From assembly GCA_005116745.1 (NCBI GenBank), contig SWDS01000010.1, positions 614,116 through 678,115 of the forward strand: 64,000 nt of DNA, in the 5' to 3' direction. Positions 26,610 to 51,921 of this stretch are shown in pieces. The translations under genes and the position numbers were made by a program. The DNA is from Nitrospira sp. Lineage in GTDB: Bacteria > Nitrospirota > Nitrospiria > Nitrospirales > Nitrospiraceae. The notes under the pieces are model-generated. The model saw only the letters and a list, made by a program, of their open reading frames with translations, was not told the DNA's origin and made no database searches. Each line of letters begins with the position of its first letter. Positions within the stretch are counted from its first letter, which is position 1.

Positions 26610-28787
26610 CTATCGCCCTTCGACCACAACCTGGGAAAAGTCGGCGAATGACATGAACAACTCATCGACCTCTTTGAGCAATGTCAGCCGATTGCTGCGG
26701 ATCGCCTGATCGTCTGCGTTGACCATCACAGCGTCGAAAAATGCATCAATGACCGGCCTCAGCCCTACCAAGGCATTCAATGCCTCGTGATAGTCCCCCA
26801 TCGACAGGGCGAACCCCATCTTCGCTCCTTCTTCGGCGACTGCCTGATGAAGCGCCGATTCTGAGGGATGCTGAAACTTCGCCGCATCGACCGGCTGGCG
26901 AACCCACTGCTCTTTTTCCACCAACCGATGCGCCCGCTTGAAACCGACGATCAACGGATCGAACTCCGGCTTTCTCGTCACGGCTTCAAGCGCGTTCATC
27001 TTCTGCACAAGGTCGCCAAGATCCACCGACGTATCATAGGCTGACTTCAACACCGAGTCGATGACGTCGTCACGCAGACCCCGCACGATCCGGACATAGT
27101 GCCGAACTCGCTCAAAGACAAACTCCGTGATTTGCCGGAGGCCTTCCCGCTCAAATCCGGATACATTCTTAAACCCATCGTTCGATACACCGTTCATCGC
27201 CTGACTGATGTACGTCCCCAGATTGACTCGAAGCTGCCCTTCAAGGAGAACCCGGACAATCGCGGTCGCATGCCGCCGCAACGCAAACGGATCTTCCGAG
27301 CCGGTCGGCACCATGCCGACATGGAAAAACGCAGCGATGGTATCGAGCCGGTCGGCCAAAGACAGGACTTGCCCCGCCACCGTTTTGGGCAACTCCCCTT
27401 CAATCGCGCGTGGAAGATACTGTTCTCGAACCGCCTGGCTCACGGCCTCCAATTCACCATCATGCTTCGCATACTCGCCCCCCATCACACCCTGTAGTTC
27501 AGGAAACTCACCGACAACCCCGGTCAGCAGATCAGCTTTTGCGAGCGATGCCGCACGGATGCAGGTCTGACGAAGTTCTTCGTCCTCCGGAGATAGATGG
27601 GCCGCAAGCGCTTCCGCGAGTTTCTTGACTCGCTCCTGCTTCTGCGCCATCGTACCGAGCTTGTGATGGAAGGTGACGCCCGTGAGTTTCCGCCCCCGTT
27701 CCTCCAGTGTGACTTTCCGATCTTCGTCAAAAAAGAACTTCGCATCCGCCAACCGCGCCGCCAGCACCCGCTCGTTCCCCGCTCGAATGAGCGCCATGTT
27801 TTTGGGTTCATTGTTGGCAATCGCAATAAAATTTGGCGCCAGATTGCCAGACTTCTTATCTCTGGCCGAGAAGAACCCCTGGTGTTCTTTCATCGACGTG
27901 ATGAGAATTTCAGAAGGAACCGCTAAGTACTCCGGTTTGAAGCGGCCAAGGACGGCACAGGGCCACTCCGTGGTATACACCGCCTCATCGAGCAAGGTGT
28001 CATCTGCATTCAATCCAACACCAGCCTTGACACAGAGCCGGTCGATTTGTTGCTGAATCGCCGTTCGGCGGCGGTCGGGATCAAGCATCACCCCTCGCTT
28101 TTCAAGACCCTTGCTATAGGTCTTGAAATCCCTCACGGTGATGGGCTTTTTGCCACCCATCACGCGATGACCGGACGTCCGATTCCCGGCATGGATCCCG
28201 GCGATCTGTACCGGCACGACCTTGCCCCCGAATAGTGCCACGATCCATCGAACCGGCCTGGCGAAGCGTACGCCCGTGTCGTTCCACTTCATGGCCTTCG
28301 GGAAAGACAGCGTTTCGAAAAGGTGAGGCAGCAACTCCGGAAGAAGGATTGCGGTCTTGCGTCCGGCATCGCGCTTGACCGCGAACAGATACTCGCCCTT
28401 CGGCGTGCTCCGTATCTCCAGACCTTCGACCGGTACACCTTGTCCAGCGGCAAATCCTATCGCCGCTTTTGTGGGTTGGCCAGCCTGGTCGAAGGCCACC
28501 ATTTTCGATGGTCCCATCGTTTCTTTGACCACCGCAGTTTGGTGCGCAAGCAACTCGTCCACGATCACGACAAGCCGTCGAGGCGTCCCATAGGTCTTGA
28601 TGGACCCGCACGACAACCGGGCATCCTGAAAGAGGCGGGTGGCTGATTCTCGAAGGGCCGTCAGGGCCGGCGCGACACATTCAAACGGCAGCTCTTCCAT
28701 GCCAATTTCGAACAACAGCTCGGCGGTAGGATTGGAACGACGAGTTGTGTGTTGACGGGGTTTCTTTTTCACGACCAGGCGCTTCAT
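26610..28787 (-). CDS. glyS: Glycyl-tRNA synthetase, beta subunit
   Basis: A 725-residue GlyS, the tRNA-recognition subunit of the alpha2-beta2 bacterial enzyme. The start of the family domain [13 protein letters not shown] and the block [15 protein letters not shown] are diagnostic; the C-terminus has the anticodon-binding-like helical domain. A Lys/Arg-rich leader of about 20 residues precedes the domain. It overlaps glyQ by 4 bp. Confidence 0.96.
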
Positions 28788-29686
28788 CGATGTGCGACCT
28801 GCGTCTTCATCAGTGGATGTCCCATCGCGACTCGCTCATCGCGATAGCGCTCGGCACATTGCCTGGCCAGTGCCCGCACCCGCGCAATGTACCCCGTTCG
28901 TTCAGCCACACTGATCGCCCCACGGGCATCGAGGAGGTTGAACAGATGAGATGATTTGATGCAGAAGTCATAGGCCGGCAGCGTCAAACGCCGGTCGGTC
29001 TGCGCGAGCAATCGCTTACATTCCGCTTCGTTCGCCTGGAAGCCCTGCATGAGCATCGTGACGTCCGCTTCCTCGAAATTGTAGCGCGACCCCTGCACCT
29101 CGGTTTCGTGATGAATGTCTCGATACGACACCGTGTCAGTCCAAGCAAGATCAAAGACGTTATCTACTCCCTGCAGATACATCGCAATACGCTCTGTCCC
29201 GTAGGTGATTTCGCCTGTGATCGGGCTGAGTTCAATTCCGCCAATCTCCTGAAAGTACGTAAACTGGGTGATCTCCATCCCATCCAGTCTCACTTCCCAT
29301 CCCAGTCCCCACGCCCCCAGCGTCGGAGACTCCCAGTCATCTTGGATGAAGCGAATATCGTGCTCCTTGGGATTGATCCCCAGCCGTGCCAGACTTTCTA
29401 GATACAGCTCTTGAATATTATCCGGTGACGGCTTCAGCACAACTTGGTACTGATAATAATGCTGAAGGCGGTTGGGGTTTTCCCCATAGCGGCCATCCGT
29501 AGGGCGTCGGCATGGCTGCACATAGGCCGCCCGCCATGGCTCAGGTCCGAGTGCGCGCAGAAACGTGGCCGGATGAAAGGTCCCCGCGCCCATTTCCATG
29601 TCATAGGGTTGATGAATCACACAGCCGTGATCGGCCCAGAAGCGATGGAGGGTCAGAATAAGTTCTTGAAACGTCACAGAGCCCAC
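28784..29686 (-). CDS. glyQ: Glycyl-tRNA synthetase, alpha subunit
   Basis: A 300-residue GlyQ, the catalytic subunit. Diagnostic blocks are [37 protein letters not shown], and the [17 protein letters not shown] segment. Translation may start at GTG 29686 or at a second GTG three codons later (29677), which would give the more usual MTFQ start. It is the first gene of the long minus-strand run; the 660-bp gap upstream must hold its promoter. Confidence 0.96.
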
Positions 29687-30037
29687 AGCCTAATCGGGAG
29701 AGACGATTCGATGTTGACGCTAGATAACGTCCCAAGCTAGCAAGAATGCTTTTGCCCTGTCAAGGAACAAGCCCTCTAGATCAATCACTTGCAGATTCGT
29801 GAGCTGCGAAAGGCACAGGCAAGTTTAGAACATACTCTAGATCGTCTCTTAACCCTCGATCACCGTAGAAGATGCTCGGTTATCGGGCAGCGCAGTCCCC
29901 TTCGCACCAGCACCACCATGCGCACTAGAGAAGAGAAGGTCTGGATAATTCCTGAATTCGATTAACCGGAGCACAAACCACAGGCACTCTTGCTGATTGT
30001 TGTCTGAGGCTTTGGATGAATTAGACCTTCCCTAACT

Positions 30038-30075
30038 GTATCTTTTCTGATCCACGTCAGTATCTGATCAGATAC
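30038..30075. promoter_or_regulatory. Tandem enhancer site for the cytochrome operon
   Basis: Two sites on one face of the helix: GTATCTTTTCTGATCC (30038-30053, one mismatch in the right half) and the perfect palindrome GTATCTGATCAGATAC (30060-30075). Their starts are 22 bp apart. They lie 74-111 bp upstream of the sigma-54 promoter, the usual place for an enhancer-binding activator. Confidence 0.75.
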
Positions 30076-30148
30076 AACGGCCCATAATGATTATTGGGAT
30101 TCTTGTGCAAATCCAAACAAATGTGTCAGTCAGCTTCACCTTACCACG

Positions 30149-30164
30149 TGGCAAGGTGCTTGCT
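30149..30164 (+). promoter_or_regulatory. Sigma-54 promoter of the cytochrome operon
   Basis: TGGCAAGGTGCTTGCT has GG and GC exactly 10 bp apart and matches the -24/-12 consensus TGGCAC-N5-TTGCW at nearly every position. Transcription would start near 30176, leaving a leader of about 170 bases before the ATG at 30346. Confidence 0.82.
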
Positions 30165-30345
30165 CTATTCTCTTCCTTATTGAGTCCTACTGAATCCCGA
30201 CTAGAGATTCAGTGAGCAAACAAAACGATCAGCTCAGAATCGCCTCATGCTGCTCACAGCAAGCTTGCTGCACATGGGGAATCCTCTCATGCACATGGGC
30301 GACCGACTCGATTAGAACGAGGATTCCTAAGAACAGGAGGAAGAT

Positions 30346-32784
30346 ATGGCCATACGACCGACACACACCGTGCTCACTCTTCTACTTGGCCTGGTGGTGT
30401 TTGCCAGCTCGTTAGTGCTCCACGGTGAAAGAGCTACCGCTGCGAGTAACACTGCCAGCACGTCATCGTTTCACTATAGCAAGAATCTGACGGATGCCGA
30501 GCGTGTCGGTGCTGAGATTTGGTTCAATGCCACGTCCGGCAACGCCCGGTTCTTTACCTATGTCTATCAACAGCGGCTCGGTGTCATGATCGATTGGTAT
30601 CGGGTCTTGCGAAGTGACTCACGTGATGACCGCTTCTATCGATGGGGACTCATGAACGATCCGGACTGCTGTACGCCTGGCGATCCCAACTGTCCGGCAA
30701 AAAGTTATGATGAAACCTATGGGTTCGACTATTGTCCGGGTGACGACGAATTGCTCAAGCATGTCGGAAAGACCGGTTATCGCGATCCTGCCTGTGATCT
30801 GAAAGACGTCCCGCTCGCCAAGGATGATCCGCACGGGCCAAAAGATATGCGACAGTCAACCTGCGATCTTGAATTCGGGACCTCGACCGGCGCGCTGGGG
30901 CTTCGAAAATTCCCCAATCCAAAGTTCGATAAGGTGAAATGGCTGAAAATTAACGGTGGACAGCTCGATTCATGGGACGGCTATACCGCCAAGGTGACGC
31001 CGCGTAAGGACCGTGAAGCACCCGCCAAGAGTCATCTCATTGACGGCTCGATTGAACCCCCCTATCGCATCGGCATGTCCTGTGGTGCCTGCCATATTGC
31101 ATTCGATCCTATTCGCCCTCCCAAAGATCCGGCCCACCCGGCATGGGAAAACCTCTCCGGAACAGTCGGCAATCAGTACGGTCGCTTTGCACAGATCTTG
31201 GGGTCCGGCATGGCAGCAAACACCATTGAGTACCAAATCTATGGGCATTCACGTCCTGGTGCCGTCGATACCTCAGCCATTCCAAACGATCAAGTCAATA
31301 ACGCGGGCACAATGAACGCCCTGATCAACCTGGCCCGTCGTCCGACCTTTGAAGAGGACATTATTAAATGGCGTAAGACCAACCAGTGTCCGGCTGGAGG
31401 AAACGAGCGAACCTGTTGGTGCGAGCCGGGCAAGGACGGCAAGTGTTGGGAGCGAGGCCGGAAGAAGGAGTTCGTCCAGCATATCTTAAAAGGTGGAGAA
31501 GACAGCATCGGTGCCCTCGAAGCGATCCAGCGCGTCTATTTCAACATCGGCAGCTGCTCCGAGGAAGGATGGGTGAATCACCTCACCGACATGCGACAGC
31601 TCGATCCCACCATGCGCGGATTCGGCCAATCGCCATTCGACATCGGACAAGTCCGTCGGGACTGTCCGCAATTCCGGGCCATTGAGGATCGTTTGGGCGA
31701 ACTCGCTCAGTTCTTGTTTACCGGAGCCCCAGCCGACCTCTACCAAGCCCGCGGCTTGAAGAACAACGCCGCACTCGTTGAGCAACTCAATAAAGAATTT
31801 GGGAAGGGCGCAGTTGAACAGGGCCGCGCGGTGTTTGCGAGCAAGTGTGCCTCCTGCCACTCCAGCCAAAGCCCGCCGTTCGAAAATAAAGATTTTCGAA
31901 CCGTTTCCACCGACCCGAAAGACAAGGGCATGCGTCTCGATTGGCTCGGAAACGACAAGCTCATCCCTGTCAGCGAGATTGGCACGAACCGTTCGCGTTC
32001 CCTCCACTCAAATCATATGCAGGGTCGCGTTTGGGAAGAATACGGGTCAGAAACTTTGCGCGCAAAACCCGGAGACCCACAGCTCAAGGAGCCTTCTGAC
32101 GGTGGACGGGGTTATTACCGAAACATCTCCTTGCTCAGTGTCTGGGCCTATGCCCCCTTCATGCACAACAACGCCGTCGGTCCGGAAGTCTGCGGCGGGC
32201 CTGTCGACGAGCACTACCATTCACCGTATGTCGATAACGCAGGAACGCGGCTCACTAGCCCTCCACCCTGCGTGCTGTTTGATCCGAGCGTCGAGGGACG
32301 ATTCACGCTCTACAAAGCGTCAATGAAAGAGTTGCTGAATCCTGCTCAACGAATTCCAAAGGTGACCGGATTCAACTCGGAGGTGACCATTCGCCTGTTT
32401 CCAAAGCTGGGGGACGGCAAGATTGATCGGTTTATCGACACCGCCATTCGCTTTCCAGTCGGCACGCCGGCTGCCCGTATCGGGAACTTCCGTCACAAGG
32501 AGCTGGTGGGAGATCTCGTCATGGCACGAGTCGACTTTGATAAGCTGAAAGCCAAATATGTCGGCCGGTACGGCGCAGAGAAGGGTGAACAGATTGCCAA
32601 GACGATCCAAGAAAAGGGCACGGAGTTGCTGGCCAAGCCAGGGTCGCTCCTCGAAGCCGGAGCGGAGCTGCGGGAGGTCTACAGCAACAGTCTGGCCGTC
32701 ATTGAAAATGATGGACACAGATTCGGCGAGGATCTCTCGGATAAAGACAAGAATGCACTGACCGCATTTCTTGCAACGCTCTGA
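30346..32784 (+). CDS. Large periplasmic di-heme cytochrome c, RoxA/MauG-like
   Basis: An 812-residue exported protein with a signal peptide ending near ATA-AS. It has two CxxCH motifs, C246-GAC-H250 and C501-ASC-H505, in the spacing of the RoxA/cytochrome-c-peroxidase-like di-haem proteins. The segment GYYRNISLLSVWAYAPFMHNN in its last third matches the conserved substrate-side block of that group. It is much longer than CcpA peroxidases. An AGGAGG precedes the ATG. It is the first gene of a five-gene operon behind a sigma-54 promoter. The redox substrate is unknown; rubber oxygenation as in RoxA is not implied. Confidence 0.85.
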   Translation: MAIRPTHTVLTLLLGLVVFASSLVLHGERATAASNTASTSSFHYSKNLTDAERVGAEIWFNATSGNARFFTYVYQQRLGVMIDWYRVLRSDSRDDRFYRWGLMNDPDCCTPGDPNCPAKSYDETYGFDYCPGDDELLKHVGKTGYRDPACDLKDVPLAKDDPHGPKDMRQSTCDLEFGTSTGALGLRKFPNPKFDKVKWLKINGGQLDSWDGYTAKVTPRKDREAPAKSHLIDGSIEPPYRIGMSCGACHIAFDPIRPPKDPAHPAWENLSGTVGNQYGRFAQILGSGMAANTIEYQIYGHSRPGAVDTSAIPNDQVNNAGTMNALINLARRPTFEEDIIKWRKTNQCPAGGNERTCWCEPGKDGKCWERGRKKEFVQHILKGGEDSIGALEAIQRVYFNIGSCSEEGWVNHLTDMRQLDPTMRGFGQSPFDIGQVRRDCPQFRAIEDRLGELAQFLFTGAPADLYQARGLKNNAALVEQLNKEFGKGAVEQGRAVFASKCASCHSSQSPPFENKDFRTVSTDPKDKGMRLDWLGNDKLIPVSEIGTNRSRSLHSNHMQGRVWEEYGSETLRAKPGDPQLKEPSDGGRGYYRNISLLSVWAYAPFMHNNAVGPEVCGGPVDEHYHSPYVDNAGTRLTSPPPCVLFDPSVEGRFTLYKASMKELLNPAQRIPKVTGFNSEVTIRLFPKLGDGKIDRFIDTAIRFPVGTPAARIGNFRHKELVGDLVMARVDFDKLKAKYVGRYGAEKGEQIAKTIQEKGTELLAKPGSLLEAGAELREVYSNSLAVIENDGHRFGEDLSDKDKNALTAFLATL

Positions 32785-32812
32785 TGTCATGAACCGGAAA
32801 GAGGTGATCACG

Positions 32813-33733
32813 ATGAAACGCGCACGATGGTTGCTGTCGGTAGGATTAGCCATGAGCCAAACGGTGCTCCTTGGCTGTCCGGGTAACCCGGATCCCCCGC
32901 AAATTCCCTATGCTCAAAGCGGGGAACACTATTCCGACAAGATGGACCTTGCCCGGCTGGAACACGAGTTCCCGCTGACACCAGCCGATCTGATGAAGAT
33001 CACACCGGAGAATCTCAAGGGCGCGACACAGGAACAGGTGGATCAAATCTATGCCCGCCTGACCGCCGGACCGATTCCAGATGGCGCCTACGACGGGCAG
33101 ATGTTTTTCCCCAAGGGATCGAGCGAACGGGCCCGGCTGGCCGAGATCGTCGGAGGAGGCATCAAAGGTTTCATCGTCGATCGCAAGGCCGCCACGCTTG
33201 AACACATCGGCGAATTTATCTGGAAAGGGAAGGTCTTCTATCGCAGCGAAGGCGTCCTCCGGAATCGCATTCAGGATCTATTGATTCTGAAACCGATCGT
33301 CGGTCCGAACGTGGAAAAGATCCAAAAAATCGAGGTCGACGGAAAAGATGCCTGGCTGCTGTTCCCCGCCAAACTTTATTGCGGCCAGAGTCTGCTGGAT
33401 GGGCGTCGAGAATCGGTCATTATCGACTACGCGTTTACAGACGACCTGCCGGGCTACCGCGAAATGCCGGATGTATTGGCCGGACGGGAAGGGTTGGAAA
33501 TACGAGACGAAATCCGGATGGTCCGCCCGGGATTCTATCTGGGACGGGCCTATATCAAGAAAGTCTTTGCCTTGAACTTCACGCTCTACAACAAGACCGT
33601 GGCAGAGAAGGAATCTCCGGCGTTTGCCAGTTCTGGCTCGGTGGCAGAGGACTGCTGGGTCGGCAATCAGCGTCTACCTGCCATGACCAACAAGCCGAGC
33701 ACTCAACAGGCTCGGGTAGCGGAAACCCATTGA
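32813..33733 (+). CDS. Lipoprotein of unknown function in the cytochrome operon
   Basis: A 306-residue predicted lipoprotein with a canonical lipobox (VLLGC). I chose ATG 32813 over 32771 because GAGGTGATCACG precedes it and the signal starts cleanly. The mature part has no haem motif and no family I recognise; LLILKPIVGPNVEKIQ and LPGYREMPDVLAGREGLEIR suggest a compact alpha/beta domain. It lies 28 bp after the first cytochrome and 24 bp before the second. Confidence 0.78.
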   Translation: MKRARWLLSVGLAMSQTVLLGCPGNPDPPQIPYAQSGEHYSDKMDLARLEHEFPLTPADLMKITPENLKGATQEQVDQIYARLTAGPIPDGAYDGQMFFPKGSSERARLAEIVGGGIKGFIVDRKAATLEHIGEFIWKGKVFYRSEGVLRNRIQDLLILKPIVGPNVEKIQKIEVDGKDAWLLFPAKLYCGQSLLDGRRESVIIDYAFTDDLPGYREMPDVLAGREGLEIRDEIRMVRPGFYLGRAYIKKVFALNFTLYNKTVAEKESPAFASSGSVAEDCWVGNQRLPAMTNKPSTQQARVAETH

Positions 33734-33757
33734 ATGCAGGTATGAGTCAGCCAAACC

Positions 33758-35698
33758 ATGCAACGGACAGTGGCGAAACAGTGGGCGACACAATTGGGAT
33801 GCCTGGTCATGATGACGGTATTGGTTTCAGGATGCGATCAACAAGACAGGGGAACGTCTAACAGCAGCACCTCTACCCCGCATACCCAATCCTCTACCCC
33901 TGCGCCTGCTGCCTCCACGGCACCTCCGTGGGTGATTGATCCGACTGAACCAGGGACCAACCTCCCTCCGGTCGGACGGTCTCTGTTTGACTTCCTGATT
34001 ACGAAAGAAGTGAACGGCAAAAAGATCTATGACATTCCATTCCCGTTTTCTACGTTCGTGGCACAGATTGAATCTCAACTCCACTCAAAAGACACCGCGC
34101 CCGTTCTGAAGCGATTGCTAATTCCTGTCAACCGTTCCCTGCAACGGCGAGCGAGCAATGGCGCCTACTTTACCTATCCCAGGGCGGTACTTGCCGTCGA
34201 TACCGAAGTCACTTCGACCTTGAGCCTGCCTGGTATGCAGCTCAAAGACCGACTGTTCATCGGCTATCATGAAAAAACCGGGGTCTTGGAAATCGTCAGT
34301 TATAACGAAGCGGCTGGCCGGTTTGAGTTTCAGATTGTGAGTGACTATCGAGCCGGGGGAACACCAACGGTTCGATACGCCAATCGTGCCCTCTGCATGG
34401 CCTGCCATCAAAATCAAAGCCCCATCTTCGCCCGTCCCATGTGGGACGAAACGAACGTCAATCCAAAAATCGCCGCCTTGCTGGCGCATCAACACCGTCA
34501 GTACCACGGCTTCCCCATTCGACAAGGGACGGGAACATTGCAGGCCTTCGATGACGCGACCGATCGAGCCAATGACATATCGCTGGCCCAGCGGCTCTGG
34601 CGGGAGGGATGCGAGCAGACAGCCCATCCGGAACAGGCCATGACCTGTCGTGCCGAACTACTCACGTGGGTCCTCCAATATGGACTGTCAAGGGGATCGA
34701 TACCGGATTGGCACACAACGGATGAGAAACCACCGTCCTTCCTTGCCGCCTGGCGCGCACGATGGCCACAAGGATTGGCCATTCCCAATCCGGATATCCC
34801 CAATCGTAATCCCTTTCGATATGTCGCGGTGAGTGAATTTCCAGGGCTCAGCGAGGTGCAGGCGACTGCGCTTGAGGGACGAGAACCACGATCCTTATTC
34901 CGTGGCCCCTACGAACCGACACAGCCTCGCGAACCGCTTGAGATCTGGTCCATCCCGGATACTCCGCAGACGCTTGAGCGAGTCTTGGCTACGTTTGTAC
35001 AGTTTTTCACAAAGACGGATCTCACTCGACTGGAACAGCTGATCCAGCGTCAGCCTAAACGGCTCCGACAAGCTGTGAGCGCGTTAGTACAGGACACCGT
35101 GCTGGGGCAGACCGATGTGTTGGCGAACCAGCCTTTTCGCCGAATGACAGTCCTGGCTGCGCTCGATCGGCAATTGGGAGGTCCGGTCGTCTCACGCTGC
35201 TGCCTGGATGATCGCGGCCTGCCACCGCCAGTGGACGATGAGATGGCCTCCCATCACGCAACCAATGAAAGTCACGAAACTGCATGGAGCAGCGAGCACA
35301 AGACCTTCCATCAGTATTGCGGAACTTGCCACCATGGAGCAGAGAGCTTTCCCCCAAACTTTCTCCATGGATCTCCCGCTGAAGTCAAAGCCAATTTGAC
35401 GCAATGTGCCGATCGCATTTTCGTGCGCTTAAGTATGTGGGACGTTCCAAGCCAAGAGCAGCTTGAGGCGCCGATGCCGCCAGCTATGCACCTGCTCCAT
35501 CACCGAATCAGTCTGGACCAGTGGAAGCATCATCCCGATTTGCAGACACTGCGTCAGGAAGTAGTGGCTGCAATTCAGCACACACGAGGCGCAACATTCC
35601 GCCCAGAACACTTACTTCAGCAGGACTACGACACCTTACCGGCGTGCCTCGCACCGAGACATGAGCCGACAGAAGCAATGGGAGCACAGCATGGATAG
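33758..35698 (+). CDS. Di-heme cytochrome c lipoprotein
   Basis: A 646-residue predicted lipoprotein (lipobox LVSGC) with a Ser/Thr/Pro-rich linker of about 35 residues after the lipid anchor. Two haem motifs are visible: C213-MAC-H (in LCMACHQNQSPIFARPMW) and C521-GTC-H. The two haem regions are over 300 residues apart, longer than in the other three cytochromes here. The final part lacks the LRAPYLHNG block of its neighbours, so it may be an electron-transfer partner and not the catalytic subunit (inference). Confidence 0.82.
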   Translation: MQRTVAKQWATQLGCLVMMTVLVSGCDQQDRGTSNSSTSTPHTQSSTPAPAASTAPPWVIDPTEPGTNLPPVGRSLFDFLITKEVNGKKIYDIPFPFSTFVAQIESQLHSKDTAPVLKRLLIPVNRSLQRRASNGAYFTYPRAVLAVDTEVTSTLSLPGMQLKDRLFIGYHEKTGVLEIVSYNEAAGRFEFQIVSDYRAGGTPTVRYANRALCMACHQNQSPIFARPMWDETNVNPKIAALLAHQHRQYHGFPIRQGTGTLQAFDDATDRANDISLAQRLWREGCEQTAHPEQAMTCRAELLTWVLQYGLSRGSIPDWHTTDEKPPSFLAAWRARWPQGLAIPNPDIPNRNPFRYVAVSEFPGLSEVQATALEGREPRSLFRGPYEPTQPREPLEIWSIPDTPQTLERVLATFVQFFTKTDLTRLEQLIQRQPKRLRQAVSALVQDTVLGQTDVLANQPFRRMTVLAALDRQLGGPVVSRCCLDDRGLPPPVDDEMASHHATNESHETAWSSEHKTFHQYCGTCHHGAESFPPNFLHGSPAEVKANLTQCADRIFVRLSMWDVPSQEQLEAPMPPAMHLLHHRISLDQWKHHPDLQTLRQEVVAAIQHTRGATFRPEHLLQQDYDTLPACLAPRHEPTEAMGAQHG

Positions 35699-35722
35699 GT
35701 CGAAGGCCAACGTTGCCACAAG

Positions 35723-37261
35723 ATGGGTGAACCCATGACCACCGAACAACGACATTGTCATTGGTGGAAGGTGATCGGCCTCGCCGCCCTGCTTCTCATC
35801 ATCACAGTCGGCGGCTTGCTGGCAGCCAGGTTTCTGGTGGATGAACCGGTCCGCTATGCCGAGGATGAAGATCACTTTAAGTACGGGTCGCTTGGTGGTG
35901 AACGGGAAGCCGGCTTTCCCTACTGGATCTGGAAAGCACTGCCTCGCGTCTGTGCGGCACAGTTGCCGGAAGGGCAACGCTCTCCAGGGCAGGAGTACAC
36001 AGCGCTGGGGTTCATTTACGAAGGAGAAAAGCCGCTACCCGTCGGCATGTCGATGCGTCGACATATGGGAGTTGATCGTGTTTTTCTGAATTGTGCGAGT
36101 TGCCACGCCAGTACGGTGCGTGAAACGCCTGCCAGTGAGCCTCGAATCTATACCGGCATGCCGGCCCATCGGCTCAATCTCATGGCGTTCGAGCGATTCC
36201 TGTTTGACTGTGCCAAGAGTGCAGCCTTCACTCCCGATCTCATTGTTCCAGCGATCCAAGAATTAGGTGGTGAGCTAAATCTTCTTGATCAATTTCTTGT
36301 CTATCCCACGGCCGTACATCTCATGAGGGCCAGACTCGTCACGCTGGATCAGCGGCTGTCGTTCATGCTCGACAAGGGACCGGAACGTGAGTGGGGACCA
36401 GGCCGGGTCGATACCTGGGCATTTGGCAAGGCCCTCTTGAACTTTAGGATGGACCAGGCCCCGGATCGCGAACACATCGGGGTTGCAGATTTCCCGTCAA
36501 TTTGGCTGCAGGAGCCCCGCCAAGGCATGCAGCTCCATTGGGATGGGAATAACACCAGCGTTGAAGAACGCAACCGGAGCGCGGCGTTCGGGACGGGCGC
36601 CACGCCTCCGACGCTCGATCGCCTGGCCATGAAGCGTCTGGAAGACTGGTTGCTCAGGCGCGAGCCGCCGGCCTATCCCTTTCCCGTTGATACAAACCTC
36701 GCTGCCAAGGGTGCACCGATCTACAAGCAGTATTGCTCCGGCTGTCATGGCGAGAGCGGGAGAAATTTCGGCGGCGAGTCGGTGGGCACAGTCGTCCCAA
36801 TCAGTGAGATCAAGACCGATCGCCACAAGCTCGATTCCTATACGCTTGAGCTCGCCGTCAATCAGAACCTCCTGTATGCGGGTACCAACGATCCGACCGA
36901 ACGCTTCTCGCATTTCCGCAAAACGAACGGCTACGCAAACATGCCATTGGACGGCATTTGGCTACGCGCCCCATACCTGCACAACGGATCAGTTCCGACA
37001 TTGAGAGATCTCTTAGAGCCTCGCAGTAAACGGCCCACGAAATTCTACCGTGGATACGATGTCTACGATCAACAGCGGGTGGGATTCGTCTCGACGGTGA
37101 GCGAAGAGCGAGGTCAGCAGTTTTTTCTGTTCGACACAACCGATGACAAGGGGCGTTCGCAACCGGGGAATGGCCGCGATGGACATGAAGGGGCTCGGTA
37201 CGGGACCGAGCTTTCTGACGCAGAGAAAGCCGCTCTCGTTGAATACCTCAAGACGTTCTAA
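35723..37261 (+). CDS. Membrane-anchored di-heme cytochrome c, RoxA-like
   Basis: A 512-residue protein with one N-terminal membrane helix (VIGLAALLLIITVGGLLAA) and two haem sites, C124-ASC-H and C338-SGC-H. It ends with the conserved block DGIWLRAPYLHNGSVPTLRD and FYRGYDVYD, typical of RoxA-related di-haem proteins. It is a paralogue of the next gene; both share FKYGSLG/FKYGSIG and PYWIW near the N-terminus. The start could be ATG 35723 or an ATG four codons later. Confidence 0.85.
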   Translation: MGEPMTTEQRHCHWWKVIGLAALLLIITVGGLLAARFLVDEPVRYAEDEDHFKYGSLGGEREAGFPYWIWKALPRVCAAQLPEGQRSPGQEYTALGFIYEGEKPLPVGMSMRRHMGVDRVFLNCASCHASTVRETPASEPRIYTGMPAHRLNLMAFERFLFDCAKSAAFTPDLIVPAIQELGGELNLLDQFLVYPTAVHLMRARLVTLDQRLSFMLDKGPEREWGPGRVDTWAFGKALLNFRMDQAPDREHIGVADFPSIWLQEPRQGMQLHWDGNNTSVEERNRSAAFGTGATPPTLDRLAMKRLEDWLLRREPPAYPFPVDTNLAAKGAPIYKQYCSGCHGESGRNFGGESVGTVVPISEIKTDRHKLDSYTLELAVNQNLLYAGTNDPTERFSHFRKTNGYANMPLDGIWLRAPYLHNGSVPTLRDLLEPRSKRPTKFYRGYDVYDQQRVGFVSTVSEERGQQFFLFDTTDDKGRSQPGNGRDGHEGARYGTELSDAEKAALVEYLKTF

Positions 37262-37280
37262 GGAAAGGAGTGTGGTCACG

Positions 37281-38777
37281 ATGAGAACGCTGAAGATCAT
37301 CCTCCTGCTGTTGGTCGTCCTTGGTCTAGTTGGCGCCTACGTCGGATGGTACAAGTTCTTCCGCGATGAAGGTATTCCTGAATGGATCACGAAGGACCCG
37401 GACATGCGGTTCAAGTACGGGTCGATTGGCGCTGAACATGACGTGGGTCTCCCCTACTGGATCTGGTACGTGATCCCGCGGGTCTTTGGGGATAAGTTCC
37501 CAGGGCCAGGCGGCTACACGTCTCTGGGCATTCAATGGGAAGAAGGCCAAGAGATCCCGATCGGTTTCACCAAGCGTGTCATCGGGTTTGCGCGTATCGG
37601 CAACACCTGCTCCTCCTGCCATGTCGCCAGCTGGCGAGCGAAACCGAGCGACAAGCCCACGTTCGTCATTGCCGGCCCGAATCACACCCTTAACTTAGAA
37701 GCGTTCTTCCGTCTGCTCGTCGACGTCGCCAAGGACCCGCGCTTCAATTCGGACGTCTTGATGGGTGAAATTCGACTCGTCGCGGATCTGAGCTGGATCG
37801 ACAAGTTGATCTATAGGTACCTGCTGATTCCCATTACGAAGAAGCGACTGCTCGAGCGTGAGCAGCAATTCGCCTGGATCTATCGTAAAGACTTTCCGGA
37901 ATGGGGGCGCGGCCGCGACGATGCGATGAACCTGACAAAGTACTTCATGATTGAAGAGCCGATGGATAACAGCTTCGGACCGACCGATATGCCCTCAATT
38001 TGGAACCTCCAGAAGTACAAACCGGAAAAGGGCCACTTCATGAACCTCGCCGGCGACAGTCATGATGCCAGGTCGGTCATTATGGATTCAGCCCTGGGGT
38101 TGGTTGGAGCGCGCCCCAAGAGCAAGACGGAATTTCTCGGGCATATTGATTGGTTTGAGGACTATCTCGGGAAATATCCGCCTCCTAAGTATCCATTTCC
38201 CATCAACCAGGCCAAAGCGGCGGCGGGCAAGGCTGTCTTCGATCAGGCCTGTGCCTCCTGTCATGCCAGTGAACGAACAGGAACTCGTGTGCCGATCGCC
38301 GAAGTCGGAACCGACCGAGGACGGCTTGATACGTGGAGTAAAGAGGCAGCGATCAAGGCGAACAAGGTCGTTCGCGAGTTTGGACTGGAACGCAAAGGAC
38401 TCGTCGAGGAACCATTGATCGGCTATGTCGCGTCCTTCCTCGACGGCATCTGGCTCCGAGCGCCCTATCTCCATCACGGCGCCGTGCCGACACTGCGCGA
38501 CCTTTTGGAGCCGGTCGAGAAACGACCCAAGAGCTTCTTCCGTGGGTATACCGTGTATAACCCGATCAAAGTTGGTTTCGTGACGACCAAGCAGGAGGCA
38601 GACACGATTGGGCTCACGGATGACCGTGAACGGGAGCAGTTACGCGAGGACGTTGAGCGACTGGGAACCAGGTTCGATGTGAGCCAACGCGCCAGTAGCA
38701 ACCAGGGCCACACGTTTGGCACCGAGCTGCCTGATAAAGACAAAGATGCCTTGGTGGAGTATCTAAAAATGCTGTAA
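37281..38777 (+). CDS. Membrane-anchored di-heme cytochrome c, RoxA-like (paralogue)
   Basis: A 498-residue paralogue of the preceding gene with an N-terminal membrane helix and haem sites C110-SSC-H and C324-ASC-H. The block DGIWLRAPYLHHGAVPTLRD and FFRGYTVYN recur. I chose ATG 37281 because AAAGGAG lies 10 bp upstream and the helix follows at once; the open frame to 37143 overlaps the upstream gene. It is the last gene of the operon and is followed by a nested hairpin. Confidence 0.88.
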   Translation: MRTLKIILLLLVVLGLVGAYVGWYKFFRDEGIPEWITKDPDMRFKYGSIGAEHDVGLPYWIWYVIPRVFGDKFPGPGGYTSLGIQWEEGQEIPIGFTKRVIGFARIGNTCSSCHVASWRAKPSDKPTFVIAGPNHTLNLEAFFRLLVDVAKDPRFNSDVLMGEIRLVADLSWIDKLIYRYLLIPITKKRLLEREQQFAWIYRKDFPEWGRGRDDAMNLTKYFMIEEPMDNSFGPTDMPSIWNLQKYKPEKGHFMNLAGDSHDARSVIMDSALGLVGARPKSKTEFLGHIDWFEDYLGKYPPPKYPFPINQAKAAAGKAVFDQACASCHASERTGTRVPIAEVGTDRGRLDTWSKEAAIKANKVVREFGLERKGLVEEPLIGYVASFLDGIWLRAPYLHHGAVPTLRDLLEPVEKRPKSFFRGYTVYNPIKVGFVTTKQEADTIGLTDDREREQLREDVERLGTRFDVSQRASSNQGHTFGTELPDKDKDALVEYLKML

Positions 38778-38800
38778 CCCCACAAACCAAGCACGGAAAA

Positions 38801-38862
38801 CCTACGCACTGACAGCCACGCTGAAGCAGAGAGCGTGCGCTTTACCATCACTTGCACGTAGG
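38801..38862 (+). terminator. Nested hairpin after the cytochrome operon
   Basis: Outer arms CCTACG (38801-38806) and CGTAGG (38857-38862) enclose an inner stem CACGCT (38817-38822) with AGCGTG (38832-38837). No T-run follows, so it is not a classical intrinsic terminator. It could end or protect the transcript, or form a small structured RNA. Confidence 0.4.
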
Positions 38863-38943
38863 CGGTCGTCCAACCCGCCCATCATCTGACTCAACTCTCA
38901 ACATATTTCCACTGCAGATCAGACGCATGATCGGATACCGAAC

Positions 38944-38981
38944 GTATCTGATTCGATACAACGTAGAATCTATTTCGATAC
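38944..38981. promoter_or_regulatory. Tandem enhancer site for the M48 peptidase gene
   Basis: GTATCTGATTCGATAC (38944-38959) and GAATCTATTTCGATAC (38966-38981) are 22 bp apart start to start, the same phasing as at 30038 and 48168. A further GATAC half-site lies at 38934-38938. The pair ends 96 bp before the -24 element. Confidence 0.75.
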
Positions 38982-39076
38982 AGGCTCCCGCATTTTCGTT
39001 GCATCAGGACAACAGTCAGCCTGCATAAGCCATTGTGATTTAAGCGGCTGTTTCATCTTACTACAGGCGATACTGG

Positions 39077-39092
39077 AGGCATGTGTATTGCT
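39077..39092 (+). promoter_or_regulatory. Sigma-54 promoter of the M48 peptidase gene
   Basis: AGGCATGTGTATTGCT has GG and GC 10 bp apart and a consensus TTGCT at -12; only the first T of the -24 element differs. The predicted start site is near 39104, about 85 bases before the ATG at 39189. Confidence 0.75.
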
Positions 39093-39188
39093 ACTTATGC
39101 TGATCACAACTAGTGAAATAAATACCTACGTTACGAAAATTACGTGTTCACAACAGTCAATAAACATTCTATTATTGGGAGGTGTCCG

Positions 39189-40121
39189 ATGAAGTATGGA
39201 TCGATCCTAGGGCTTGCAAGTGCGACTATGTTCCTCTTCATGACTGCCTGTGATCAGCTCCCCATTGCAGGAGGCGGGATAGCGGGCTTGTCCACGGCTG
39301 GGCAATCCACCCTTAACTCTCCCGTATTGCTGGACAAGCTTGGAAAGATTTTCTACGCCGACGCAACGAATGGGCGGGAAAAGTATACGGCGGAAGCTAG
39401 CAAGGAAGATAAAAAAGTGACAGATCAAATGACTGGCATTTTTGACCTGTTGATCGATGCTGCAAAGCACAACCAAAAATACGGCGCAGTCGCTAATGAA
39501 ATGGCTTGGCAGCTCACTACCATAAAAGACAAAGCAATAATCAATGCCAAAGCAGTTCCCGGCGGTGGAATCATAATTTATGACGGAGTATTCAAGCCCG
39601 CACAAAACGAAGCTGGATTGGCTGCCCTACTGGGACATGAAATGGTCCATGTGCTCGCTCGGCATGGACTCAAACGACTCGCTGGTTCTGCGGCTACAGC
39701 GGCCGCGACTATAGGGCCCCTGATCGCGTCGGGCGTAACACTAGGCAACATGGATCCCGAAGTTATCGGGCCAGTGGCTGGTGCGTTGGGAGTCGGGGCC
39801 GCCTACGGAGTGCATCAGCAATGGGAGCAATTGCAGGAACATGATGCCGACTGTGATGGCCTGTTATTGGCCGCCGAAGCTGGGTACAATCCAGAAGAGA
39901 TCAATACGTTTTGGGGAAACATGGCGAAACTAACAGAAGAGCAAAAAAAGACGATCCAGTTCCTGGCCGATCACCCTATGAACGACGATCGTCTTGCCCA
40001 TATCAAAAAGGAGTGCCTGCCTAACGCCGGGACAGCGTATAACAATCGGGTTCAAAAACTACAGGCAACGGGCCAGAAAAAGCCGAATTCTATTGAGCCA
40101 TTACCAGGCGTTGCAGGATGA
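39189..40121 (+). CDS. M48-family zinc metallopeptidase lipoprotein
   Basis: A 310-residue M48 peptidase with a lipoprotein-like signal (LFMTAC). The zinc motif HExxH is present as LGHEMVHVLARHG, and the third ligand region is LQEHDADCDGLLLA followed by AGYNPEE, as in LoiP/BepA-type envelope proteases. I chose ATG 39189 over 39144 because GGGAGG lies just upstream. It probably acts in envelope quality control at the inner or outer membrane. A sigma-54 promoter with the shared operator pair precedes it. Confidence 0.9.
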   Translation: MKYGSILGLASATMFLFMTACDQLPIAGGGIAGLSTAGQSTLNSPVLLDKLGKIFYADATNGREKYTAEASKEDKKVTDQMTGIFDLLIDAAKHNQKYGAVANEMAWQLTTIKDKAIINAKAVPGGGIIIYDGVFKPAQNEAGLAALLGHEMVHVLARHGLKRLAGSAATAAATIGPLIASGVTLGNMDPEVIGPVAGALGVGAAYGVHQQWEQLQEHDADCDGLLLAAEAGYNPEEINTFWGNMAKLTEEQKKTIQFLADHPMNDDRLAHIKKECLPNAGTAYNNRVQKLQATGQKKPNSIEPLPGVAG

Positions 40122-40159
40122 TGGCGCCAACGTGTGAGAACGGGTGGAGCTAGGCGAAA

Positions 40160-41116
40160 ATGAGCTTACCGGAGAGCCTGTCTCCACTCGCACAAGGATC
40201 CAAGCGCAGCGGTTCAATCCATATCTGGACGCGCGTAATGAGGACGTTCGCACTGGCTGTAATAGCCGGTGCGTGCTTCGCCTGCAGCATGGGGTTTGCC
40301 GAACAGCCAGTCTTGAGAAGCAGTCAAAGCCGAATCGCAATGACAGGACAGTCGCTCCTGGTTGGAGATCGACCCGAAACGCCTGGATATGGACTCCATA
40401 GCTATGTGCTGTTCAAGCAGGAGCCAACCGATGAGAACAGGCCCCTCTACCTTGCGATCATTCTAGCCTGTTTGAAGGGAGTCCCAGACCTCGGAAGACT
40501 GGAAGAGAAATACCATGACAAACAGATGCTCAATGCGCTGTGGATCCCGGTTACCGAAGATGTCACGGATTCTGCAGTACCTTCGCCTGAGCTGCCCGAA
40601 AATGAGCAATTCAAGTCGAGGGCAAAGGAGATTCTTAAGCGGTACAACTACCCACGGGCAAAAGCGATTCTCAATCGGCTTTCCACCATCCAGAGGAATG
40701 ACGGACCCTATCTGGCATCCGGCTTTGAGCCAGCTTTACATGGCAACACACCACGGCTTTTCTTGTTTCAAGATTTGTCAGCGGTTCGCCTCGTGTCGAG
40801 TCAGGCCGATCAGACTGAACTAGCCTTTGCGTGGGTTCTCCACTTTATCAGTCGAGTCAGTGATCCCCGGTCCAAATCCTGGGACAGTGACGCGTTAACA
40901 ACATTCAGCGACAAGCTGCGGAGGAATATACAACCCGCATTCGAAAAGTATGGTGTAAGAGCAGACCAGTTAGATCTAAAAAAATATATCGTCTTTCCGC
41001 CACCAGATGACGGAAGACAACGAACCTTGCTGGTCCCCTCCTGGGTAGCCCAAGGGAATGATAGCAGTCCCAGCCCCATCCCTATTCTGGAGCGATCGCA
41101 TTTCGAACCAATGTGA
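40160..41116 (+). CDS. Exported protein of unknown function
   Basis: A frame of 318 residues from ATG 40160. An internal ATG at 40238 gives a cleaner signal peptide (FALAVIAGACFACSMGFA), so the protein may be 292 residues. The mature part has YLAIILACLKGVPDL and LFLFQDLSAVRLV, but I recognise no family. It follows the M48 gene by 38 bp and is probably in the same transcript. Its last 35 bp overlap the 3' end of the TIR-STAND gene on the other strand. Confidence 0.72.
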   Translation: MSLPESLSPLAQGSKRSGSIHIWTRVMRTFALAVIAGACFACSMGFAEQPVLRSSQSRIAMTGQSLLVGDRPETPGYGLHSYVLFKQEPTDENRPLYLAIILACLKGVPDLGRLEEKYHDKQMLNALWIPVTEDVTDSAVPSPELPENEQFKSRAKEILKRYNYPRAKAILNRLSTIQRNDGPYLASGFEPALHGNTPRLFLFQDLSAVRLVSSQADQTELAFAWVLHFISRVSDPRSKSWDSDALTTFSDKLRRNIQPAFEKYGVRADQLDLKKYIVFPPPDDGRQRTLLVPSWVAQGNDSSPSPIPILERSHFEPM

Positions 41117-44006: not shown

Positions 44007-44105
44007 CTGGCAAACACTGTCGGCAATTTGCTGATTAAAGGTATCCCGTCGTCGTCCGGCGTCCTTGTGGGCACTACGTGCTCATGTTGCTGTCGACCTG
44101 TGTCA

Positions 44106-45119
44106 TCAAGATTTTGAGAGTAGCGGGTGGAGACTATGCCGCTTTTCTTGCATCATTTGGATATAGGCCCTGCGGCTGAGCGCACCTCTCTTGATCACCA
44201 GCAATTTCTGGTGACCGATCGCAATGGCTGTGGCTTCGAGATCGAGACGAACCTTAGACGGCCCAACCTCTTCCCCCAGCTTTGCAGTGAATTCCCCACT
44301 CTCATACTGGTCCCACCATGATGTCGCGTGTGACACATAATCTTTCAGAAAGTGCGATCGTACAACCCAGAGACCAAGACTCTGCTGATCAAGCACCGGG
44401 GTTATCAAATCGTGAGCCCATTCAGGCACCTCATGGATCGACCGAAAGGTATGCTCCCCTGGGAATCGCTCAAGCACCAAACTATCCAATGCTCTGAACA
44501 AATCGTCGAACAGGGTATGTTCTTCTTGAGAAAGAGTCGATGCCTCTGGTGAGTCAGAGGGACCGCCGCTGGTTCGCTCTTCATAATTTTTTAAATTGAT
44601 CGCCGTAGCATCATCGTCCCTCGCGAGTATCTGTTTTGCTAGGCACTCGAACGCCTCATTCACTCCCTCGCCAGTCTTGGCACTGGTTTCAAAAATGTTG
44701 GTCCCCTCACCAAAGATTTCAAGGGCACGGTTGGTTACTGCGGGAGAGGGAAAGACGTCCTGCTTGTTGATCAGGAGCACAAATGGAATTTCTTCTTTCT
44801 TCGAATCCTCAGGCAGGAGATCTTTTACACCGTTGAGTGTGTCGGGACGTGTGACATCCGCCACCAACATATGCCCATCTGCTCCACCAAGGTCCAAAGT
44901 AGAGTATTGCAATCCTGGATCGTCCTTCCCTTGGAGATCCCAGATATTCAACTTAACTAGTTTGTCATCGCAGGTGATGCACGTGTCATACATGCGGCCG
45001 CCGAGCGTGGTTGTGTAGCCTTCCTCAAACTTGTCGTATGTGAATCGTCTCACGAGGGAAGTCTTCCCGACAGCGCTGGCTCCCAGCACGCAGATTTTTA
45101 TACTCAGAGAATCTGTCAC
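44106..45119 (-). CDS. Ras-like small GTPase with C-terminal sensor-like domain
   Basis: A 337-residue protein. Residues 5-165 form a Ras/Rab-like GTPase: G1 GASAVGKT (13-20), G3 WDLQGKD (60-66), G4 NKQD (118-121), G5 TSAKTGEG (145-152). The G3 glutamine of Ras (DTAGQ) is replaced by Lys65, so slow intrinsic hydrolysis is likely. After an acidic linker, residues about 205-320 resemble the N-terminal sensor-like domain of some histidine kinases (VPEWAHDLI, FLKDYVSHATSWWDQYESG, LEATAIAIGHQKLLVI). The start overlaps the upstream stop by 4 bp. It fits the poorly known prokaryotic Ras-superfamily groups (Rup/MglA-like). Confidence 0.88.
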   Translation of the reverse strand: MTDSLSIKICVLGASAVGKTSLVRRFTYDKFEEGYTTTLGGRMYDTCITCDDKLVKLNIWDLQGKDDPGLQYSTLDLGGADGHMLVADVTRPDTLNGVKDLLPEDSKKEEIPFVLLINKQDVFPSPAVTNRALEIFGEGTNIFETSAKTGEGVNEAFECLAKQILARDDDATAINLKNYEERTSGGPSDSPEASTLSQEEHTLFDDLFRALDSLVLERFPGEHTFRSIHEVPEWAHDLITPVLDQQSLGLWVVRSHFLKDYVSHATSWWDQYESGEFTAKLGEEVGPSKVRLDLEATAIAIGHQKLLVIKRGALSRRAYIQMMQEKRHSLHPLLSKS

Positions 45120-46813: not shown

Positions 46814-46934
46814 GGCCTTGCTCCCGTGGTCAAGCGGATTTCAGGCGCGATGATAGTCTGTGGCTTTCAGCCGATCGTTCCCTGTGCTCGGAATCGCACT
46901 TCCCTGCCGACTCTGTTTCCAGGCCTTGTGTCCA

Positions 46935-47561
46935 TTACTTGCCACGAGTTTGGGCGAGGTCTTCACCTAACGACTGGGCGGATTTGGTGAACAATTCTGC
47001 GAGTGCGGCACGCGTGACTTTTTCCCGCCGCAACTCCCTCAAGGCTGACTCCATGACACCTGAGAGCTCTTTGTTTTTCTGGTGCATCTCAGCCAACAGA
47101 GCCTGCTGTTGATCGGCAATCTGCTGACGCAATTCACGGCTTTCGGTCGAAGCCTGTTGGTGCAGCTGAGCGGTACTGGCCGAGACCGTCTTCCCCAATT
47201 CGTTCAGGTCGCGCAACAGACCGGCGCTCGACTGAGCCCGGCCCTCGTGCTCGCTTTTGATCTGGGCCGTGAGCGCCTCGACATGTCGCTTCATGGACGA
47301 TTCAAGCGAGTCACATCGACTGTTCAATTCCTGTTTCCATTCGCCGGCGACACGCGTGAGCGATTCTTCAAGATGGGCAATGCGCTGCGCATGTTCACGG
47401 AATTGCGCGCCGAAGAGCAATTCCTGGACCTTGGCAAGCCCATCGGGCTGGTTCCGGTTCTCTTCTGGGAATGGCTTGCGGCTGTCGTCATGGGAACTGG
47501 TTTCTTTGTTGGCATGCAGGGACGGCTTCGGTGCATCTCGTTCCGTCGCAGTGGGTTTCAT
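46935..47561 (-). CDS. Coiled-coil protein
   Basis: A 208-residue soluble protein, almost wholly helical after a polar, disordered first 40 residues. Heptad-like stretches run from about 45 to 190 (AQRIAHLEESLTRVAGEW, LRQQIADQQQALLAEMHQ). No membrane segment or enzyme motif is seen. GGAGGA precedes ATG 47561. It is the gene before the OmpA-like protein (121 bp gap) and probably a structural part of the same complex (inference). Confidence 0.75.
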   Translation of the reverse strand: MKPTATERDAPKPSLHANKETSSHDDSRKPFPEENRNQPDGLAKVQELLFGAQFREHAQRIAHLEESLTRVAGEWKQELNSRCDSLESSMKRHVEALTAQIKSEHEGRAQSSAGLLRDLNELGKTVSASTAQLHQQASTESRELRQQIADQQQALLAEMHQKNKELSGVMESALRELRREKVTRAALAELFTKSAQSLGEDLAQTRGK

Positions 47562-47704
47562 GGTCGTCCTCCTTCACGTCGTGCCACGGTGCGGCTTGTA
47601 CTGACCCGCCGGCGCCTCAGACAGACTTGCGTAGGAATACTGTCAGTGTTGGATACTAGCACTCTCGGACAGCGAGGTCTAGCCTAGGAATGTAGGATCA
47701 GTGC

Positions 47705-47752
47705 CCTGATCAGGCGCGTACAAACCAAAGGGACTGCTTGCCTAGCGCTAGG
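47705..47752. promoter_or_regulatory. Two perfect palindromes upstream of the GTPase cluster
   Basis: CCTGATCAGG (47705-47714) and CCTAGCGCTAGG (47741-47752) lie in the 253-bp gap before the coiled-coil gene. They could be regulator sites or weak hairpins. No T-run accompanies them, so the gap does not clearly stop transcription coming from the sigma-54 promoter at 48043. Confidence 0.35.
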
Positions 47753-47814
47753 GCCTCAGCGAGCTGGTAAGAGACACAGCCACTCTATCGAGAACTATCC
47801 AGGCCCTCAAGTCC

Positions 47815-47982: not shown

Positions 47983-48042
47983 GACGAACCTCCTCACGAT
48001 AGATGGATAGTTGGAGAACATCTCTTGATGAAAACTACAAAG

Positions 48043-48058
48043 CAAACTGGATGCCACG
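48043..48058 (-). promoter_or_regulatory. Sigma-54 promoter of the leucine-zipper gene
   Basis: Read on the minus strand, TGGCATCCAGTTTGCT matches TGGCAC-N5-TTGCW with one deviation and exact GG-N10-GC spacing. Transcription would start near 48032, about 50 bases before the ATG at 47982, and could continue into the coiled-coil/GTPase/TIR cluster. Confidence 0.82.
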
Positions 48059-48167
48059 CAAAAATACTGATGCCGCCATACTTCAAAACCATTGTAAGAG
48101 CAGATAGTTACAGAACTTGATAGAACACGAGAGGGTACAGAACGGATGGATGACTGAATCAGATGTG

Positions 48168-48205
48168 GTATCGAATTAGATACAGGGATGGATCAGAAAC
48201 AATAC
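48168..48205. promoter_or_regulatory. Tandem enhancer site for the leucine-zipper gene
   Basis: GTATCGAATTAGATAC (48168-48183) and the weaker GGATCAGAAACAATAC (48190-48205) are 22 bp apart start to start. The nearer one lies 110 bp upstream of the -24 element. This repeats the arrangement found before the cytochrome operon and the M48 gene. Confidence 0.7.

Positions 48206-48268: not shown

Positions 48269-51921
<3,653 letters not shown>

Follow-up and report, generated by a model that had tools for sequence, protein, structure and literature searches.

The window analysed here, a 64-kb stretch of the 3.86-Mb genome of a nitrite-oxidising Nitrospira (contig SWDS01000010.1), contains an operon of five same-strand genes, termed A to E, that together span 30346-38777 according to open reading frame (ORF) calls. 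The genes and the control elements ahead of them were located as follows:

30038..30075, + strand: tandem dyad, putative activator (bacterial enhancer-binding protein, bEBP) site, GTATCTTTTCTGATCC-N6-GTATCTGATCAGATAC
30149..30164, + strand: predicted -24/-12 sigma-54 promoter before A, TGGCAAGGTGCTTGCT, of the form GG-N10-GC
30346..32784, + strand: gene A, an apparently exported di-haem protein of 812 residues, RoxA superfamily, outside the curated models
32804..33733 (in-frame ATG also at 32789), + strand: gene B, a lipoprotein of about 309 residues without Pfam match, predicted calycin-like beta-barrel
33758..35698, + strand: gene C, a lipoprotein of 646 residues with two CxxCH, no family assigned
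35735..37261 (ATG also at 35723), + strand: gene D, a membrane-anchored RoxA-like di-haem protein of 508 residues
37281..38777, + strand: gene E, a membrane-anchored RoxA-like di-haem protein of 498 residues

Two CxxCH motifs are found in each of A, C, D and E and none in B, which carries the lipobox LLGC, and the four di-haem proteins and one lipoprotein of the first-pass annotation are thereby recovered. The lipobox of C is VSGC, D and E begin with hydrophobic anchors and A with a signal-like N-terminus, all of these being read by eye from the sequence without a signal predictor. Intergenic gaps measure 4-36 bp depending on the start chosen; the gaps of under 30 bp claimed earlier hold throughout except between C and D when the later start of D is taken (up to 36 bp).

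Family models, profiles and a tree were utilized in order to place the di-haem proteins, and by sequence comparison A, D and E are on the RoxA side of the di-haem family, outside CcpA/MauG. For D and E this follows from family models, as both pass PF21419 (RoxA-like), and for A from a profile match: a 19-sequence A profile has RoxA (4b2n) as its top match (E 2e-5), the alignment running in the same order through the C-terminal haem, PYxH and the final ligand. The A profile also matches the D/E profile at 98.5% over 90 columns, and RoxA is the best PDB match for A, D and E alike. Although CcpA and MauG belong to the same di-haem superfamily, PF03150 gave no match for A, C, D or E. In a tree of 23 sequences built on the C-terminal part, in which the RoxA row was pieced together from printed fragments, D and E join RoxA with a support of 0.936, while the genome's own two cytochrome c peroxidase (CCP)-type proteins and a MauG-like protein group together at 0.965, apart from D/E. 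The expectation that these are not ordinary CcpA peroxidases is thus borne out. In contrast, scores lie far below the NCBIfam equivalog cut-offs of 900-1000 bits for RoxA, RoxB and RoxC, the best being 67.3 (D against RoxC). Among A-E the MbnH model (TIGR04039) reaches at most 13.9 bits, below its cut-off, and the MauG model (TIGR03791) is not listed. NF040606, named "di-heme-cytochrome C peroxidase", has a cut-off of 150 bits that is passed by D (176.2) and narrowly missed by E (148.6, 1.4 bits short); A (34.1 bits) and C fall outside. We know of no tested function for that family. A search of 399 Burkholderiales genomes for RoxB references returned none, and the control set was equally silent. 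Of the four proteins claimed to be RoxA/MauG-like, A, D and E are shown to be so. For C this is not shown, as it has no family match and its profile shares no more than a single CxxCH with those of A or D/E.

The residues expected of the RoxA type were then compared, with RoxA ligands as given in the available part of PMC6311187. D and E have two CxxCH, a His195-type proximal ligand, an H641-type C-terminal ligand and the PYxH motif. In D these are His124, His338, His484 and PYLHNGSV at His416, accompanied by an inter-haem Trp269 and by Phe285; in E they are His114, His328, His477 and PYLHHGAV at His398, and Leu replaces both the inter-haem Trp and the Phe. A has haem sites CGACH (His250) and CASCH (His505), a C-terminal His791, and PFMHNNAV (His607) where the RoxA type has PYFHNGSV; both haem sites and the last His are thus kept. 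The Phe of D aligns with RoxA F317 in one alignment and is shifted in the other, and in A the position of F317 aligns while that of W302 is alignment-ambiguous. Of the catalytic residues for which a check had been proposed, the haem ligands are retained, the inter-haem Trp is seen in D and not in Nitrospira E, and the Phe depends on the alignment. E of the examined Burkholderiales and Rhizobium sequences, unlike Nitrospira E, retains the inter-haem Trp. D and E had been described as close paralogues with membrane anchors; the anchors are present, but the two are only 36% identical over 505 residues. Like RoxA, RoxB and RoxC, D and E have two c-haems, a His/His C-terminal haem and PYxH, and they differ from RoxA and RoxB in being shorter and membrane-anchored; A is longer and has a cysteine-rich insertion. 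In one locus (L028, 15390-16951) D appears to be split by a frame change in a metagenome-assembled genome, possibly a pseudogene or an assembly error.

A close parallel is the pair PA2077/PA2078, an oleate 10S-dioxygenase and a 7,10-diol synthase (FadCcp, PMC4496055). According to the available part of that paper, both contain PYFHNGSVP, with W251 in PA2077 and S243 in PA2078, F269/F260, and C-haem ligands H375-H611/H365-H603. As in D/E, this is a tandem pair of periplasmic RoxA-like di-haem proteins with the PY[FL]HNGSV motif seen in D, and, going by published residues only, one partner has the inter-haem Trp and the other has lost it, as in Nitrospira D/E. The pairs of Burkholderiales and Rhizobium differ from PA2077/PA2078 here, as their E keeps the Trp. 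PA2077 and PA2078 are longer (634/624 residues, 43% identical to each other, against 508/498 and 36% for D/E), and no A, B or C is described in the part of PMC4496055 seen. For RoxC, oxidation of unsaturated fatty acids is only suggested in the corresponding part of PMC10837239.

B is strongly conserved, with 68 invariant columns among 15 sequences. Its profile gave no significant match to the PDB by sequence. The AlphaFold model of B (pLDDT, the predicted local distance difference test, 71.8) has 4mve as best structural match (Z 10.9, 138 residues, root-mean-square deviation 2.9); the next match reaches only Z 6.2, and lipocalins and fatty-acid-binding proteins appear in lower rows at Z <5. 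The model suggests a calycin-like fold that may hold a hydrophobic ligand. B and C had no match on plasmids at E 1e-5, B had no confirmed match in viral contigs, and C had none among the family models.

Sigma-54 control of the A-E operon, as put forward in the first-pass annotation, is strongly supported by sequence conservation. The -24/-12 element alone is weak evidence, as the genome has 27 copies of TGGCA-N6-TTGCW and 16 of the reversed control pattern, and becomes convincing because it is conserved together with the tandem dyad upstream, of consensus GTATC-N6-GATNC-N6-GTATC-N6-GATAC, with the promoter some 70-92 bp after the dyad centre. Among 15 Nitrospira loci, which include near relatives and exclude L027 as its contig begins there, GG-N10-GC lies upstream of A in 14 and a double TATC-N6-GAT dyad in 13; L032 has neither and L029 lacks only the dyad. 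The spacer between dyads is 1-2 bases shorter in L025, L031, L033 and L034, and rpoN is present in the genome. A palindromic repressor site in place of sigma-54 was rejected, since the GCAAG-N3-CTTGC symmetry of the -24/-12 region is lost in L033 and L034 where GG-N10-GC is retained. As in NtrC-type regulons, the -24/-12 follows a tandem dyad and a gene for an NtrC-type REC-AAA-HTH activator directly precedes A in L028 and, assigned by 72% identity, in L032. The orthologue in our genome is 78% identical to that of L028 and is one of many such activators there; orthologues occur in 33 of 34 other genus genomes as well, dyad-less ones included. The link to the dyad is drawn from adjacency to A in L028 and in the dyad-less L032 and from an adjoining dyad in G027, G032 and G034, making this gene a candidate regulator of the dyad promoters, its identity unproven. 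In the literature examined, titles and abstract openings mention neither the operon nor its dyad, and the passages covered contain neither the dyad sequence GTATC-N6-GATAC nor this target set. Neither the available portion of PMC6606698, which mentions sigma-54 regulators at N. moscoviensis nxr genes, nor that of PMC3162934, which ties sigma-54 to the cell exterior, refers to the operon.

Comparison across 35 genomes of the genus, own included, showed the operon to be accessory, occurring in 10 of them. G007, a close relative, does not have window positions 29797-47819, 18 kb with A-E and the M48, TIR and Ras-like genes: L156 1-1963 corresponds to 27835-29796 and L156 2181-5001 to 47820-50638, and about 217 bp join the flanks. 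The operon lies within a variable segment, or island, beside glyQ. Outside the genus, A-B-C-D-E occur in identical order at three Burkholderiales/Betaproteobacteria loci (L035-L037), A-B-C in L038, where the contig ends, and in a Bdellovibrionaceae bacterium (L040), and A-B in a Rhizobiaceae-group bacterium (L039) whose genome yielded no C. Both pRL11 of R. johnstonii and a plasmid of Sinorhizobium carry, in this order, genes for an NADH:flavin oxidoreductase, D, a membrane protein of small size, E, A, a GMC oxidoreductase and a patatin-like protein; in Sinorhizobium the patatin match is below the Pfam cut-off and the gene spans two ORFs. The gmcA gene of PMC7105596 was considered for this GMC neighbour and rejected, as the part of that paper seen gives gmcA as pRL100444, on another plasmid. 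A and D/E are present without B or C in the rhizobial stretches examined. D-E pairs without an A match within the stretch examined occur in G488 and in G700, where a B-like ORF (30%) accompanies them; a survey of 369 genomes of that class yielded D in 4, one being the centre genome of L037.

In the 10 A-bearing genus genomes the genes after C are exchanged as modules. D-E follow C in five (G000, G010, G019, G024 and G034), and the other five (G002, G012, G018, G028 and G031) have in their place a cassette in which a DyP-type peroxidase gene lies between F8 and F10; the two modules were together in none within the stretches examined. G handles were matched to loci via contig coordinates, and the stretch of G002 ends inside the DyP gene. 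F10 matched neither Pfam nor the PDB, and its homologue in L061 (35%) has a weak catalase match below cut-off, so that "catalase-like" is tentative. The Rhizobiaceae locus L039 also carries F8-F10 homologues. A short E remnant stands directly after F10 in L027 and L029, which points to differential loss or replacement of D-E. Taken together, the accessory and modular nature of the operon is well supported. Duplicated 3' ends of F10 or E are found 3' of the intact gene in L026 (21960-22145), L055 (19678-19836) and L057 (3347-3577), as though an insertion of DNA had occurred at the operon end, and in L026 a gene for a type VI secretion system Tle1-like phospholipase (19987-21519, - strand) lies between F10 and its remnant copy.

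Homologues of A form two groups that share about 27% identity. Group I (the window and L023-L040) is accompanied by B and carries the cysteine-rich insertion, and group II (L058-L062, L071 and L072) has a GMC oxidoreductase companion and no B match. The tree supports group II at 0.986 and does not resolve group I as a clade. The insertion (CC, C, C, C) is located at window 30653-30870 and is absent in L058-L062. In two group-II genomes of another genus, the A-like gene is close to an MPAB_Lcp (latex-clearing/mpaB type) oxygenase, identified as such in L061, beside GMC and catalase-like genes, and assigned by 66% identity in L062. In L062 a dyad (2 mismatches) lies upstream of A with TGGCATGTGATCTGCA; L061 has only a looser dyad-like stretch and TGGCGTATGATCTGCA. 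A galactose/glyoxal-oxidase-like gene of the copper-radical type precedes A and the GMC gene in L058 and L059, with fragments only in L060.

We tentatively read A-E as a conditionally expressed, periplasmic, membrane-tethered oxygenase system of the RoxA/FadCcp branch that may act on an unsaturated lipid-like substrate. This draws on the D/E family scores, the A profile, the retained haem ligands and PYxH, the Trp pattern, the B model and gene context, namely the rhizobial GMC oxidoreductase and patatin, the MPAB_Lcp, GMC and catalase-like neighbours and the D-E/DyP exchange. Oxygenation of such a substrate is the most likely role and peroxide handling the main rival. An NtrC-type activator bound to the tandem dyad would open the sigma-54 promoter, and only then would the operon be expressed. 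D, in which the RoxA-type haem ligands and the inter-haem Trp are kept and a Phe lies close to the N-terminal haem, would insert O2 into a C=C bond. E, having lost the Trp in Nitrospira, would convert the hydroperoxide so formed, in the manner of PA2077/PA2078 acting on oleate. A could be a larger di-haem partner for the same or a bulkier substrate, B could present or carry the hydrophobic substrate, and C may be one more haem lipoprotein that perhaps shuttles electrons; the sister lineages have the DyP/catalase-like cassette where D-E would stand. The oxidation of an organic substrate suggested earlier, here of a hydrophobic one, would fit gene context and the D/E residues.

Several observations weigh against this reading. 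No member has a known substrate or activity, and the GMC, galactose-oxidase-like, DyP and catalase-like partners would also suit production and removal of H2O2. As E of Burkholderiales and Rhizobium keeps the Trp, the division into a second step may be specific to Nitrospira. Dyad and -24/-12 are absent before A in L035-L040 outside Nitrospirota (0/6) and in the rhizobial operons (0/2), so the control is not part of the conserved system, and L032 has the activator gene beside A yet neither element, arguing either against this activator or in favour of a loss within the L032 lineage. The position of Phe-317 in D/E and that of Trp-302 in A vary with the alignment, a shared barrel fold, as predicted for B, is no demonstration of lipid binding, and C has no explanation, its AlphaFold model being poor (pLDDT 51) and unusable.

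The foremost alternative, that D, E and A are membrane-bound peroxidases that detoxify peroxide or organic hydroperoxides with respiratory electrons, the DyP/catalase-like cassette being a functional substitute, is possible but on balance less likely. It agrees with the NCBI name of the D/E family, with the replacement of D-E by that cassette in half of the A-bearing genus genomes and with the H2O2-making oxidase families adjoining A homologues. However, the C-terminal haem of CcpA is ligated by His/Met, while the ligand set here is RoxA-like with His/His, and the separate tree branch and the missing PF03150 match are also at odds with it. DyP and F8 have no obvious signal peptide by eye and would work in another compartment, and the lipase and Lcp-type neighbours are left unexplained. 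Cleavage of an isoprenoid, be it a carotenoid, a hopanoid precursor, a quinone side chain or scavenged polyisoprene, is improbable. RoxA as best PDB match of A, D and E and the MPAB_Lcp neighbours in L061 and L062 speak for it; the scores of no more than 67.3 bits do not, the patatin goes with the rhizobial version, and Nitrospira is an autotroph not known to us to use rubber. Since the superfamily members MauG and MbnH modify proteins, A or D/E might likewise mature a partner such as B or C, and the conservation of B would suit this; such a role is most improbable given the MbnH score far under cut-off, the absence of MauG from the A-E matches and the occurrence of A and D/E without B or C in the stretches examined. 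A respiratory conduit tied to nitrite oxidation would befit a nitrite oxidiser with four di-haem proteins, two of them membrane-anchored, but is the least probable of all for an accessory operon that recurs in Burkholderiales and rhizobia and whose nameable dyad-associated genes are mostly hydrolases and oxidases.

The dyad is found beyond the operon. Further elements in the window are:

38944..38981, + strand: second tandem dyad, before the M48 peptidase gene
39077..39092, + strand: second -24/-12 element, AGGCATGTGTATTGCT
39144..40121, + strand: M48 metallopeptidase lipoprotein, putative regulon member
48168..48205, - strand: third tandem dyad, with -24/-12 TGGCATCCAGTTTGCT at 48056-48041 (-)

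The first good ORF after the third dyad, 46935-47561, begins about 480 bp after the promoter. At up to 3 mismatches the dyad occurs at 15 places in our genome against 0 for the reversed control, and at up to 1 mismatch in 25 of 59 genomes, own included (control 0). Among 68 distinct dyad sites, some orthologous and hence not all independent, 46 have a -24/-12 scoring at least 5 (of 8) no more than 230 bp away in either direction, compared with 12% of 3000 positions drawn at random; at a score of at least 6 the figures are 24 sites and 4%. The other 22 sites have none. A-bearing genomes carry more other dyad sites than A-less ones (p 1e-4; p 1e-3 among genomes at least 90% complete). In our genome, dyads with a gene-side -24/-12 precede the A operon, the M48 lipoprotein, a CarboxypepD_reg lipoprotein, a DUF2278/LTD protein, a caspase, a patatin lipoprotein, whose dyad has 3 mismatches and whose promoter lies at a distance of 227 bp, and proteins without clear family. 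Two more genes, for another patatin and for a hemopexin protein, likewise face a dyad but lack a -24/-12 on the gene side. Of 20 dyad-linked ORFs scanned in other genomes, chosen by script so that some may be wrong, 10 have a Pfam match: TIR, papain, copper amine oxidase, two GMC oxidoreductases, two subtilases, matrixin, phosphoesterase and DsbA. For five of the 20, including one of the GMC and one of the subtilase ORFs, the -24/-12 scores less than 5. The dyad thus appears to mark a regulon, in which the nameable genes are mostly hydrolases and oxidases. A doubtful but possible extension is that this Nitrospira sigma-54/activator regulon encodes enzymes that attack lipids and proteins, several of which are exported or lipoproteins (patatin, phosphoesterase, GMC and copper amine oxidases, subtilases, papain, caspase and M48), with A-E making oxylipins or oxidatively breaking membranes of neighbouring or dying cells.

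In L025 a dyad (10048-10085) lies before a MauG/MbnH-like di-haem gene (10562-11983) 3' of the operon, and the -24/-12 there faces away. On the same island as A-E, at window 41082-45119 (- strand), a TIR-NPHP3/NACHT-like-TPR protein of 974 residues adjoins a Ras-family small GTPase of 337 residues.

The known roles of RoxA-like di-haem proteins are limited to rubber oxygenases and the P. aeruginosa oleate pair. What the operon contributes is a conserved system of several genes, among them a possible substrate carrier, behind a promoter for which a putative activator site is defined, and this makes an uncharacterised enzyme family testable; a lipase-linked version is found on plasmids of Rhizobium leguminosarum, an organism where gene removal is routine. 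The regulon, if real, would be a new regulatory layer in an ecologically central nitrifier. Should the lipid- and protein-attacking role hold, an organism that lives autotrophically by oxidising nitrite would possess an inducible programme of scavenging or attack whose haem oxygenase and peroxidase cassettes are exchanged as modules.

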